Shown one piece after another: positions 57,080-62,060 of a stretch of DNA of 64,000 nt. The stretch lies in contig NZ_CP072829.1 of the NCBI RefSeq assembly GCF_017945865.1, positions 1,054,001 to 1,118,000 of the forward strand, read 5' to 3'. The stretch comes from Xiamenia xianingshaonis. GTDB taxonomy: Bacteria; Actinomycetota; Coriobacteriia; Coriobacteriales; Eggerthellaceae. Numbering within the stretch: position 1 is the stretch's first letter; every line of letters starts with the position of its first letter. The position numbers and the translations under genes are program-made. Below the pieces are notes generated by a model, which had not been told where the DNA came from, did not search any database, and saw only the letters and a list, made by a program, of their open reading frames with translations.

Positions 57080-57194
57080 TGTCAGGGGTCGGGTGCTTTG
57101 GCACGCTCTCCCCGACACACGGATGTCAAAGCACCCGACCCCTGACATCGCGATCCAGAGTCGAGTCGCGTGTCAAAGCACCCGACCCCTGACA
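57080..57194. repeat. Three copies of a 24-bp REP-like repeat
   Basis: A 24-bp word beginning TGTCAAAGCACCCGAC occurs at 57124-57147 and, identically, at 57171-57194. It also occurs inverted with one change at 57080-57103. The first two copies can form a long hairpin with a 20-nt loop. The pattern resembles intergenic repeats mobilised by REP-associated tyrosine transposases. Confidence 0.75.
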
Positions 57195-57224: not shown

Positions 57225-58430
57225 CTACTGGATCGTGATCACCTCGTCGAGGACATAGTGAAACGTTGGTGCGGAGCAGTTTTCGCTTTCGTGGTATTCT
57301 TCCCGCAAGTCTATGGTGTCGGAGGGGTCGTCCGGGTTTGTTCCGGTGTAATCCCCGTAAAACACCTGGACGCTGTCTTCCTTGAAGCCTTTCACCAGCT
57401 CTTCTATTCGCTCCTCTGTTCCCTCTGCCGCGCTATACGCATTGAGCTCCAGCAACTGCACCCATTCCTGTTCGAAGCCGGCTCCTGCGTCGTTTCCATG
57501 CACCGTGGCTTCCACGCACTCTTCGATGTCTTTCCCTTCCAAAACCGCCTGCGCCGCCGCCGTCATATAGGGCGCCCAGTTGAATCTCGTGCCGATGAGA
57601 TAGGTCGTTGGCGCGATGTCCCTCATGCTCTCGTTGTAACTGACGTAATAGACCTCCTGAGAGCTCTTGGATTCCTCGCAGGCGGCCGCCGGCCCGGAGG
57701 TGTCCGTCTCCTGGGATATGACGACGCATCCCTCGTCGATCAGCTCTTTGGCGAGCTTCTTTTCCAAATGATAGTTTGTCCAGGTGTTTGCATATTTCAC
57801 CGTCATGACCGCATCCGGAACCTCTGTCCTTGCGCCGAGGAGGAACGCCGTGTAGTCGGAAATCACCTCCGCAGAGGGATACGCGCCTACGTAACCGATT
57901 TTCGCCTGCTCCGGCGTGATCCGCCCCTCTGCGATGAGTTCTTTCAACTTCATTCCCGCAACGACGCCGCAGAGGTATTTGCCCTGGTAGATGCTGCCCA
58001 TAAACGTATGGTAATTCGGCAGCAGCGGATCCTCGTTCGCGTTGCTGCAGGTGGCTTGACAGAACTGGACGTCAGGGTGCTGTTCCGCGCATTCCTTCGT
58101 CTTCTCTCCATAGCCATAGCTGGTGGTAAAGATCAAGCCGCACCCGGCATCCACAAGCTCTTCCAACACCGCATCCACGCTGTCTTCCGAAACATTGTAT
58201 CTCGCGGTCGTTTCCACGTTTTCGGCATACAGCTTCTCTATTTCCGTCTGCGCCTTCATGAAATTGCTCGTGTACGCGGTGCTGGCGTCCCCAACATACA
58301 CAAAGCCTATTTTCAGGAAGCCGTTCTCGTGGTTTCCGTACGCAACATAATGGATGGAGCAAATGACGGCGATCGCGGCAAGCACGCTGAGCAGGGTCGT
58401 GAGGTATTTTTTGCCTGTTTCACTCTTCAT
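57225..58430 (-). CDS. BMP family (nucleoside/lipoprotein-type) substrate-binding protein
   Basis: The 401-residue protein has an N-terminal membrane anchor (about 11-32) without a clear lipobox, then a BMP/Med-type periplasmic binding fold: LKIGFVYVGDASTAYT, YNVSEDSVDAVLEELVDAGCGLIFTTSYGYG, QGKYLCGVVAGMK and KIGYVGAYPSAEVISDYTAF. Relatives bind purine nucleosides for ABC transporters, but no permease or ATPase is encoded here. ATG 58430 overlaps the stop of the upstream receptor gene by 11 nt, so the two are translationally coupled and the product may present a ligand to that receptor. Base composition is less GC-rich than the surroundings. Confidence 0.85.
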   Translation of the reverse strand: MKSETGKKYLTTLLSVLAAIAVICSIHYVAYGNHENGFLKIGFVYVGDASTAYTSNFMKAQTEIEKLYAENVETTARYNVSEDSVDAVLEELVDAGCGLIFTTSYGYGEKTKECAEQHPDVQFCQATCSNANEDPLLPNYHTFMGSIYQGKYLCGVVAGMKLKELIAEGRITPEQAKIGYVGAYPSAEVISDYTAFLLGARTEVPDAVMTVKYANTWTNYHLEKKLAKELIDEGCVVISQETDTSGPAAACEESKSSQEVYYVSYNESMRDIAPTTYLIGTRFNWAPYMTAAAQAVLEGKDIEECVEATVHGNDAGAGFEQEWVQLLELNAYSAAEGTEERIEELVKGFKEDSVQVFYGDYTGTNPDDPSDTIDLREEYHESENCSAPTFHYVLDEVITIQ

Positions 58431-61400
58431 GCTCGCTCGCCTCGCTGCCTTTTGCCTCGTAGATGCGGCCCACATCGATGGTTCCATCATCGATCAGGCC
58501 AAGCAAGATGTCTACCAGTGCCGGGTCGAACTGCGTTCCTCTTCCTTTCCGCAGTTCCTCCAACACGTAGCCGAAATCAAGTCTGCTTCGGTAAACCCGG
58601 TTTGCCGTCATGGCGTCAAAAGCATCCGCTATTCCGATGATTCTTGCATACAGGGGAATTTCCTCGCCCTTGAGCCCATGAACATAGCCGCGTCCGTCGT
58701 ATCGCTCATGATGATATAAGGCGCCTTCCGCCACATGGTCGATCAGCGTGAAGCTTTTCAGTATGTCTGCGCCCTTTGTGACATGGGATTTCATAATCGC
58801 ATATTCCTCGTCCGTGAGCCGTCCCGGCTTGTTCAGCACGCGGTCCGGTATGCCGATTTTCCCAATATCATGCAGGACGGCTATTTTGCGCAGGTTCTCG
58901 CATTCTTCGTCGCTCATGCCCAGCTTTTTCGCGATCAGCACCGAGTATTCCGACACCCTGATGGAATGCTGACTGGTATTCTCATCTTTTGCGTCGACCG
59001 TCTGCGCAATCGTCATGATGGTTTCGTTTCCCATTTGCAGCTGCTTTTCAGCCAGCTCTAATTTCATTTGTTGCTGAAGCAGCATTTTCTGCGCCCGTTT
59101 TCGAACGATCAGCCAGGTCAGATACGCCGTCAATATCAGTGACACGATTGCGACGTAGATCAAGAACCACCCGTTGTCGTATATCTCCCTGTCCTTTACG
59201 ATCTGGTAGGTGTTCTCCGCAATCGGCTTGCCTGTTTTGCTGTCAAGCACGGCAACGTGGAAGGTATAGCTGCCGGAGCGCAGGTTGGTATACTCCAGAT
59301 TCGCCGCTTCGCTGGGGGACACGATTCTCGGTTCTTTTTCAAATCCCTCCAGCCAGATGCTGATCACCGGCTCATTGACGGAATAATTGACGATTTCCGG
59401 GTTTATCCTGATGCGCTCCGCATCCCTTACGATGTGAAACGCTTCCCCCTTTTCCATCGGATAGCTGATGCCGTCTACCGTGATCGACTGCAGAAGCATT
59501 CGATACGATCTGGCGTCAACCTCGTACTGGTTCAGGTTCATGCAAACAACCCCAGTCGTGCCAGACATATAATAGTCCCCGTTGTCGTCCAAGCAGTTCC
59601 ACGCGTTGGGCGTCAGCGCCGTCTGCAGGCCCCGCCTCGCGTCTAGGAGAGTGTAGCTCACCTCGTTTCCCTCCAGCAGCTCGGAGCGGTCCACGACATA
59701 GATGCCTGCCGAGCTCAGCACGAACAATTCGTCCTGGCTTCCCTGGACGATGTCGTAATTGTTATAATAGGGGAAGGCGTCCAAGGTTCTGATTCGGCCG
59801 TCATGGTCCATGTAGCACAGGCCGTTTCCAGTTACGACGAACACGCCGTCCCCATTCGCGTCCCGCACCATCTTGATGATGATGTCGGAACTCAGCCTGT
59901 CTTCCTGGTTCAGGGTTTCTTTCACGACGCCGTCCTTGAGGACCGCGATCCCGTTTCCGTCTGTTCCGGCAAGGATGCTGCCATCGTCCCGCTCCAAAAG
60001 CGACAGCACTTTCGGATTCTCCAGCCCTTCCGCCGCTCCAATCCTCTGGGTTGCAACGCCGTTTTGCAGATACGTGACGCCGGAGTCTCCCGCCGCGACG
60101 ATTCCGCCGTCCGTCGTCTCTATGATCGAGCGGAAGTTGTTTCCCAGCGCGCCCGTATCGCTGTCGTATCTGACGATTTCGCCAGCGGGGGACACCTTCC
60201 AAAGTCCCTGGCCAAACGTTCCTATCCACAGGTTTTGGGCGGAATCAACCATCAGGCAGCGAATCCTTGTCCCGCGAAGCCGCTCTGTCAAGTCGTCGGT
60301 GATCTGCGTGGAAGCGCTGTCGCTGCTGATGTCCAGCCCGTCATCGGTTCCCATATACAGGCATCCCTGCCATTGCGCCGTCGTGTTCACGACCTGGTCC
60401 GACGAGTCTTCCTTCCCGTGAATTTCCCTGAAGACGGAAGGGGACAGATGCAGCAGCCCAAGTCGTGAGGACACGAACCATATGTTGCCCTGATAGTCGA
60501 ACAGCGTGTTTTCGAAGGAATTGTTGAAGCTTCCGGTGTCGATCGGTTTGATCTCGCCGGAGTCGTTCAGGTACCCAGCGCCATTGTCGGCGCAGACCAT
60601 CAGCTCGTTTTCTTCCGAAAAGCAAAGGGCATTGATGTCCTTGAGCGCCCCGCACGGCAAAGAGGACGACGCTTTCAGATCCGTCCCTGCTACCCGATAT
60701 ACGTCAATGGCGTCTGCAGAGCCTCCCGCATAGAGGTTTCCCGCTTGGTCGAAGGCGCAGCAATTGTACGCATCGCCGTTTTCCAGAGTCCGCTCCGCGA
60801 TCACTTCGGTGCCGTGCAGCACGTAGAGCTTTCCTTCGTCTGTGACAGCGGCAACGTTTCCGTTTTGATCGGCGCATACGCTGATGGCGTTTACAACCTC
60901 CGGTATCGTCTCATGCACCTTCAGCCCGTCGGACAATTTCATGACGACCAGGCTGGACGTCGTTCCCACATAGTAATTGCCCTGCGAGTCTTCCGCAATG
61001 CAGCGGACGGAGTTGGACGGAAGCCCATTGCTGCGGTTGATCACGTTGGTAATGTTTTGATTGATGCAGATGGACAAGCCGTTGTCGTTGGTGCCGATCC
61101 ACAGTCGGCCGCTTTCATCCGTAAAAAGGCAGTTCACGGTTTTGACGGATTTCATGTCGTTCATCCATTGGAACTGGTTTCCGCTGTAACGATACAGTCC
61201 GCCATAGGTGCCTATCCATAAAACGCCGTCCTTGGTCTGCGCAATGTCGTTGGCCGTTCCTCCCGTAAGCCCATTCTGTCCGTTGTAAACCGTCTGCACA
61301 TATCCCTGGTATTCAAATTCTTCCAGCGTCTGCCAATCTGATGCAGCATGCGCGCATACCGTGTTTGTCGATGCAAGCAGCACGCACAGCGGCAGCGCGA

Positions 61401-62010
61401 AGATCATGGTGCGAAGGGTGCTTTTCGCGCTCTTCGACCGCTTTCCCTTGTTCGCCGTGCCGTCTTTGCCTTTCCTGTTTTGAATCAACCGTATCACCAG
61501 AAAGCACAGCAGCATGGTGATCACTCTATCGAGGAAAACGAGATAGAACTGCCCCATGATGCAGCTGAGTATCCTGTTAAAGCCGATTTCCTGGAACAGT
61601 CCGATGACGCCGTCGCCCCATATATTGCCGGTGTAGCCGTCTTTATAGAAAAAGTTTATGGGGACGGATACGAAAACGGAGACGACTGTTACCGTCAATG
61701 CGGTTGACAGCACTCCGAACAGGTCATCAAAGGCGCCTTTTTTTGCGCTTATTCCGACAATAACCCCGACTGCTATGCTGGTGAACCCATACAGCCAAGA
61801 CATCGGATCATGCAAGCCATACACGACGTTGAGAGCTGCACCTACCATGGCGCCGCACACCGGGCCAAGCGCGTATGCGGCGAACACCGTGCCGATCGTG
61901 TCCAGCCAAACGGGAAGCTCCAGCGTTTCGGCCAATATCCTTCCAGCGTAATTGACAAAGACGCACAAAACGACCAGCAAACTCGTTTTATATAGCTTTT
62001 TCTGTCCCAT
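58420..62010 (-). CDS. ECF-S-like / beta-propeller / Y_Y_Y / HD-GYP membrane receptor
   Basis: A 1196-residue multidomain receptor. Residues 1 to about 180 form five or six membrane helices like an ECF-transporter substrate-binding subunit (LPVWLDTIGTVFAAYALGPV, VYGLHDPMSWLYGF). After a second hydrophobic stretch (about 200-222) comes a large extracytoplasmic beta-propeller of two-component-regulator type (about 245-850; repeats such as DGVLWIGTYGGLYRY and GRLWIGTNDNGLSI), a Y_Y_Y domain (about 865-935), a membrane helix (about 945-968), a short coiled coil and a cytoplasmic HD-GYP domain (about 995-1180) with HDIGKIGIPD and HHERYDGRGYVHGLKGEEIP. HD-GYP domains usually degrade c-di-GMP; here the GYP tripeptide is GYV. 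ATG 62010 is preferred to 62016 for spacing from AGGG. Coupled to the BMP protein gene. Confidence 0.85.
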   Translation of the reverse strand: MGQKKLYKTSLLVVLCVFVNYAGRILAETLELPVWLDTIGTVFAAYALGPVCGAMVGAALNVVYGLHDPMSWLYGFTSIAVGVIVGISAKKGAFDDLFGVLSTALTVTVVSVFVSVPINFFYKDGYTGNIWGDGVIGLFQEIGFNRILSCIMGQFYLVFLDRVITMLLCFLVIRLIQNRKGKDGTANKGKRSKSAKSTLRTMIFALPLCVLLASTNTVCAHAASDWQTLEEFEYQGYVQTVYNGQNGLTGGTANDIAQTKDGVLWIGTYGGLYRYSGNQFQWMNDMKSVKTVNCLFTDESGRLWIGTNDNGLSICINQNITNVINRSNGLPSNSVRCIAEDSQGNYYVGTTSSLVVMKLSDGLKVHETIPEVVNAISVCADQNGNVAAVTDEGKLYVLHGTEVIAERTLENGDAYNCCAFDQAGNLYAGGSADAIDVYRVAGTDLKASSSLPCGALKDINALCFSEENELMVCADNGAGYLNDSGEIKPIDTGSFNNSFENTLFDYQGNIWFVSSRLGLLHLSPSVFREIHGKEDSSDQVVNTTAQWQGCLYMGTDDGLDISSDSASTQITDDLTERLRGTRIRCLMVDSAQNLWIGTFGQGLWKVSPAGEIVRYDSDTGALGNNFRSIIETTDGGIVAAGDSGVTYLQNGVATQRIGAAEGLENPKVLSLLERDDGSILAGTDGNGIAVLKDGVVKETLNQEDRLSSDIIIKMVRDANGDGVFVVTGNGLCYMDHDGRIRTLDAFPYYNNYDIVQGSQDELFVLSSAGIYVVDRSELLEGNEVSYTLLDARRGLQTALTPNAWNCLDDNGDYYMSGTTGVVCMNLNQYEVDARSYRMLLQSITVDGISYPMEKGEAFHIVRDAERIRINPEIVNYSVNEPVISIWLEGFEKEPRIVSPSEAANLEYTNLRSGSYTFHVAVLDSKTGKPIAENTYQIVKDREIYDNGWFLIYVAIVSLILTAYLTWLIVRKRAQKMLLQQQMKLELAEKQLQMGNETIMTIAQTVDAKDENTSQHSIRVSEYSVLIAKKLGMSDEECENLRKIAVLHDIGKIGIPDRVLNKPGRLTDEEYAIMKSHVTKGADILKSFTLIDHVAEGALYHHERYDGRGYVHGLKGEEIPLYARIIGIADAFDAMTANRVYRSRLDFGYVLEELRKGRGTQFDPALVDILLGLIDDGTIDVGRIYEAKGSEASEHEE

Positions 62011-62060
62011 ACACATGCCCTGATTTCGTTTCCATGGCTATTGGAAACTTCGTTGTTCTC

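Follow-up and report, generated by a model that had tools for sequence, protein, structure and literature searches.

Within the window, the 64,000-nucleotide stretch of DNA analysed here, two adjoining reverse-strand genes encode a multidomain membrane receptor and a binding protein of the BMP (basic membrane protein) family (Table 1). Both reading frames were found at the coordinates of the original prediction, with a receptor of 1196 residues and an 11-nt overlap between its stop and the BMP start at 58430. An in-frame ATG at 62016 offers an alternative receptor start (1198 residues), but the ATG at 62010 is preferred because AGGG lies 7 nt 5' of it; a longer reading of the BMP frame, from 58490 (421 residues), is possible. 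ABC permease, ECF ATPase, GGDEF protein, and response regulator genes are all absent near the module, as originally described, and the whole genome of this gut bacterium holds two GGDEF proteins and two HD-GYP proteins besides the receptor. The module has a GC content of 54-55%, with a third-position GC of 0.70-0.72 as against 0.82-0.88 in its neighbours, and adjoins tRNA-Gly and tRNA-Val genes. Between tRNA-Val and the BMP gene (57080-57194) the 24-nt repeat TGTCAGGGGTCGGGTGCTTTGACA occurs three times, one copy being inverted with respect to the other two; hairpins are possible, and the window holds no further copies. An upstream gene of 263 codons probably does not belong to the module, as it stands about 760 bp from the receptor in Slackia sp. 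ZJ119.

Table 1. Features of the receptor/BMP module (positions in the window; residues are those of the protein concerned)
Feature	Position	Strand	Basis
Receptor gene, 1196 aa	58420..62010	-	ORF and profile matches
Six-helix membrane domain of ECF S-component fold, residues 1-185	61456..62010	-	NCBIfam CD3073, AlphaFold, PDB fold matches
Seventh transmembrane helix, leading outside, residues 195-220	61351..61428	-	Hydropathy; low-confidence helix in model
Two beta-propellers, residues 237-860, 14 blades by BT4663 homology	59431..61302	-	Reg_prop, Foldseek
Y_Y_Y domain, residues 861-945	59176..59430	-	Profile just below cut-off, full-length model, Foldseek
Last transmembrane helix, residues 951-969	59104..59160	-	Hydropathy, model
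Predicted HD-GYP phosphodiesterase domain, residues 990-1175, GYV for GYP	58486..59043	-	Profile, metal ligands
Partner gene, BMP-family binding protein, 401 aa	57225..58430	-	ORF, Bmp profile
N-terminal hydrophobic helix of BMP, residues 9-31, no lipobox, probable membrane anchor	58338..58406	-	This protein and about 75 homologues

The proposal that residues 1-180 of the receptor resemble an ECF S-component is upheld by both profile and fold. The NCBIfam family CD3073, an ECF S-component family, matches residues 12-178 (E about 2e-19 to 5e-21) as well as all 68 of the 68 homologues of the domain (best 7e-27), with a score for the receptor of 75 bits that falls below the strict equivalog cut-off of 180; PF12822 likewise scores 18.7, below its cut-off of 30.7. 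Judged by sequence, the membrane domain is thus related to the curated ECF transporter families, yet outside them. An AlphaFold model of residues 1-185, built from the 68 homologues, reaches a pLDDT of 92.3, and the best 22 PDB entries found with VIA-align are ECF S-components without exception (Z 15.1 to 9.1; riboflavin, thiamine, folate, biotin, pantothenate, metal, and cobalamin types), followed in the ranking by a lipoprotein acyltransferase with Z of about 8. Foldseek returns the same S-components at a probability near 1.0, though with weak E-values. The NXR motif is absent at positions 18-44 in 68 of 68 rows, and so is the extra N-terminal helix H0, since the model opens with helix 1 at residue 2-4; PF07694, the LytS-type 5TMR profile, still matches 43 of the 68 homologues (best 2e-7). 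The genome of one relative encodes a stand-alone homologue of the domain (L227:2736-3335), 31% identical, whose operon also holds EcfT and a double EcfA. Of the 23 residues that are near-invariant among the membrane domains of the receptors, this homologue shares 21, the polar N20, W35, D37, N119, N129, W131, and D161 among them, which ties the receptor domain to this transporter subfamily and makes a residue-by-residue comparison of the transporter and receptor forms of one subfamily possible. The same operon (L227:275-3924; double EcfA, EcfT, CD3073-type S-component) lies beside an isochorismatase-fold hydrolase, a hint as to the substrate of that transporter.

Beyond the membrane domain, the predicted succession of propeller, Y_Y_Y, and HD-GYP domains is borne out by profiles and fold. 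Pfam profiles detect Reg_prop repeats (3e-24) and Y_Y_Y (1.5e-5; 25.2 bits, cut-off 26.6), and with the ectodomain of the full-length model (pLDDT 83) Foldseek retrieves BT4663, BT3049, and BT4673 of Bacteroides, with an E-value of 6e-33 to the BT4663 ectodomain. The double propeller and Y_Y_Y of the Bacteroides-type sensor are therefore present in the receptor, while the histidine kinase and AraC outputs of the hybrid two-component systems are absent from it by Pfam profiles. We infer a topology in which six helices are followed by a basic inside loop, helix 7 leads out to the extracellular propellers, and helix 8 returns to a cytoplasmic HD-GYP domain.

The HD_5 profile (PF13487) matches this last domain at 5e-39. 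Its metal ligands (H1015, H1047-D1048, H1076, H1100-H1101, and D1129) are intact and kept in 82-83 of 85 receptors; the third residue of the GYP tripeptide is Pro in 49/85 homologues and Val, as in this receptor, in 15/85. The output of the domain is most likely the breakdown of c-di-GMP, to judge from the conserved metal ligands and the two GGDEF proteins of the genome. HD-GYP proteins can prefer cGAMP, and a module acting on this or another cyclic dinucleotide, or on pGpG, rather than on c-di-GMP would fit the annotation of the closest solved HD-GYP domain by E-value as a cGAMP phosphodiesterase, the GYV tripeptide, and the replacement by Asn of the 4mcw Glu located four residues before the first His. 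We regard such a specificity as unlikely, however, as 4mcw scores nearly equal to the cGAMP enzyme and both GGDEF proteins of the genome, whose GGDEF motifs are intact, carry the Asp that we take to be the mark of c-di-GMP-type cyclases, as opposed to the Ser of cGAMP types. A point against a c-di-GMP system is that the genome has no PilZ effector. A search for the c-di-GMP-I riboswitch gave 0 matches anywhere, controls included, which makes it uninformative. In a few relatives a GGDEF gene lies near the module.

Pairing with BMP genes in other genomes, on which the original prediction depended, proved to be conserved. A scan of 84,980 species (GTDB contigs) with the receptor alone as query yielded 79 loci, two of which (L053 and L084) end with the contig right downstream; 75 of the remaining 77 have a BMP gene immediately downstream and in the same orientation. 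A second set, drawn from 299 Lachnospiraceae genomes, added 20 receptors that belong to this clade, none more than 79% identical to the first set, and 18 of them are directly followed by a BMP gene, again always on the same strand. Both sets together thus show an adjoining BMP in 93 of 97 assessable relatives (about 96%), the members with room downstream yet no BMP being L038, L098, L149, and L152; nowhere in the L038 genome is there a BMP match. Because the genes stay together to this extent, the pair looks like a dedicated sensor and not a transporter. The receptor and BMP frames overlap by 4 nt in 40 of 76 measured pairs; as starts were set at the earliest possible codon, longer overlaps are upper bounds. 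Where genomes were searched for the two genes alike, strong BMP matches (E < 1e-90) numbered 17, of which 16 stand beside an S-component receptor. Although most relatives are metagenome-assembled genomes, the genome of the window consists of one contig, and the pair also occurs in records titled as isolates (Slackia ZJ119 and Lachnospiraceae NC2004).

Sister receptors of other layouts in the same Lachnospiraceae sample behave differently, with a BMP gene beside 0 of 40 (Fisher p = 2e-30 for pairing in the clade against the sisters, a value that is nominal given their relatedness). They comprise S-component-propeller-HD-GYP proteins (n=7; the one checked has an added REC domain), S-component-propeller proteins with other outputs (n=8; three were checked and have kinase or GGDEF outputs), propeller-HD-GYP proteins without an S-component (n=17), and other propeller proteins without one (n=8; a hybrid kinase in the single case checked). 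The BMP is consequently a partner that goes with one clade rather than with the S-domain itself; the presence of an S-component alone does not predict a BMP, as 15 sister receptors with the domain have none. At four loci (L060, L054, L055, and L063) and about 14 others, all of one clade, an SBP_bac_3 gene (amino-acid type) lies directly upstream of the receptor, which suggests two binding proteins per receptor in that clade. At L187-L193, propeller proteins of the hybrid kinase type adjoin S-component/HD-GYP proteins of 715-740 residues whose middle part has no assigned domain, a pairing of which we know of no description.

These comparisons bear on the possibility that the S-component and propellers are the main sensors, the BMP sensing another ligand or acting as a modulator, so that two or three inputs would be integrated (a vitamin-like one in the S-component, another on the propellers, and a purine through the BMP). 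Such an arrangement would agree with the residues that the S-domain keeps with its transporter homologue, polar ones included, with the match of the propellers to BT4663 (by its entry title a heparin/heparan sulphate sensor), with the sister receptors in which the same S-domain or propellers occur without a BMP, and with the clade that has a second binding-protein gene. The BMP pairing is nevertheless stricter than an accessory would predict, and we hold this arrangement to be somewhat unlikely.

The partner matches the Bmp profile PF02608 well above its cut-off (1e-27; 97 bits, cut-off 24). Paired BMPs open with a hydrophobic helix and have no lipobox cysteine, and this helix probably stays uncleaved and serves as a membrane anchor. 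The partner is the sole BMP of its genome, which also has no BPD_transp_2 permease, the type that BMPs serve and that 12 of 14 control genomes possess; among relatives, second BMPs have a lipobox at L088 and L110 and an ATPase-permease-permease operon at L128. The partner thus looks unlike a transport protein in this genome. That the BMP nonetheless serves uptake, together with an ECF module or a permease encoded elsewhere, and that the receptor only monitors transport, appears highly improbable: BMPs and S-components serve transport in most genomes and the homologous S-component sits inside an EcfT-EcfA operon, but the permease and the lipobox are both missing here. The AXXXA contact motif is also absent at fixed positions of helix 1 (7 of 68 rows have one anywhere), but we do not count this as proof that transport was lost, since the motif is also lacking in the closest transporter homologue. 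At L088:10415-13326 and L110:12741-15723, a lipobox BMP followed by a chemoreceptor (sCache_3_3 and MCP signal domains) lies beside the module, and a related ligand may feed chemotaxis there. At L124, L125, L129, and L132, the BMP domain is found within proteins of 640-700 residues, about 290 N-terminal residues of which have no assigned domain.

Among solved structures, the partner BMP is closest to 3s99, which was modelled with adenine, and to AtzT, which binds guanine with a Kd of 110 nM (PMC6834077). AtzT Tyr45 corresponds to Y53 of the partner (Tyr in 74/77 BMPs), Glu165 to E188 (kept in 69/77), Trp194 to W217 (71/77), and Asn220 to D243, Asp in 62/77 and in 3s99. Asn218 is replaced by His in 70/77, as in 3s99, and by Glu in this partner; Ser97 corresponds to S104 (Ser in 47/77) and belongs to a Ser97-Phe98 loop that is variable over the family and missing from one large clade. 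Transport-type BMP relatives in the same genomes adjoin phosphoribosyltransferases (L127 and L131) and a xanthine/uracil permease (L128). On the basis of this kinship, the kept pocket residues, and these purine-gene neighbours, a purine base such as guanine, xanthine, hypoxanthine, or adenine is the most likely ligand, which sharpens the original suggestion of nucleosides. Ligands may differ among clades, given the variation of the loop and the Glu in place of His in this BMP, and a purine base is more doubtful in the clade without the Ser-Tyr loop.

As to the history of the module, two Slackia receptors are nested in the tree within a well supported, otherwise Bacillota clade, and 2 of 4 congeneric genomes examined carry the module, the window's own included. 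Between Slackia sp. ZJ119 and the window, the cassette is 84% identical and the TerC-side flank 94%; the plasmid search found no near copy. The module most likely moved into Slackia from Firmicutes, an origin that had been proposed from composition and with which both the position of the receptors and the lower GC relative to the neighbours agree.

All together, the module is a real and conserved two-gene unit, and it is most likely a sensor. We consider it reasonably probable that the two genes form one signalling device, in which a purine-base BMP co-receptor regulates c-di-GMP breakdown through the HD-GYP domain. In this scheme, of which we infer the anchoring, the purine ligand, the docking, the phosphodiesterase activity, and the direction of the effect, the BMP, probably tethered to the outside of the membrane by its uncleaved N-terminal helix, would capture an extracellular purine base and, once closed, dock on the outer side of the receptor, at the propellers, the Y_Y_Y domain, or the S-component domain. 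Docking would rearrange the receptor, which is probably dimeric, and this change would travel along the last transmembrane helix and a helical linker to the cytoplasmic HD-GYP domain, setting its activity and so altering the level of c-di-GMP. The S-component domain, as a repurposed transporter subunit, would serve as the receptor's anchor and may itself bind another ligand. Distance correlations with the BMP proved too weak to assign the docking face, phylogeny being uncontrolled (partial r given HD-GYP, 0.38 for the S-domain and Y_Y_Y, 0.24-0.25 for the propellers). An improbable variant is that the anchored BMP passes its ligand on to the S-component domain, the receptor being a stalled importer whose output is messenger breakdown and not uptake; binding proteins and ECF S-components are not known to work together in transport. 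If the favoured scheme is true, the module would represent a widespread way for purine bases to act on c-di-GMP in Firmicutes of the gut and rumen, a group with few known c-di-GMP inputs, and a direct example of a receptor made from transporter parts; it also gives a conserved uncharacterised gene pair a testable ligand prediction.

Among known systems, the pair may work like NspS-MbaA, with BMP docking and c-di-GMP turnover, an analogy that the conserved gene pairing supports; we know of no S-component domain or propellers in MbaA. This Vibrio cholerae system is also a membrane c-di-GMP enzyme gated by a binding protein, but NspS is periplasmic and binds polyamines, and MbaA is a GGDEF-EAL protein (PMC8967002). 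Receptors and S-components have been shown to share one fold, with GGDEF and EAL outputs (Partipilo and Slotboom, 2024, PMC11109136). In the 5TMR receptors BtsS and YpdA the S-component fold is likewise the membrane domain, whereas the present receptor lacks H0 and NXR and has extracellular propellers, an HD-GYP domain, and a binding-protein partner; the text of that paper mentions neither propellers nor HD-GYP. Bacteroides BT4663, BT4673, and BT3049 share the ectodomain of two propellers and Y_Y_Y, but have a hybrid two-component output and no S-component domain or BMP. AtzT and Brucella 3s99 are BMP-fold purine-base binders and the best sequence relatives of the partner, but are transport-type solute-binding proteins without a paired receptor (PMC6834077). 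In XylFII-LytS (described in PMC9769921), a dedicated binding protein also docks on the extracellular part of a sensor, although there the ligand is xylose, the docking domain a four-helix one, and the sensor LytS. The dCache_1PU sensors place c-di-GMP enzymes under the control of extracellular purines, which in their case are bound directly by the Cache domain (PMC11245519). In the open-access literature we found no description of HD-GYP joined with ECF S-components, propeller regulators, or basic membrane proteins. S-component receptors and binding-protein-gated c-di-GMP enzymes are known separately, and their combination is new among the descriptions found.
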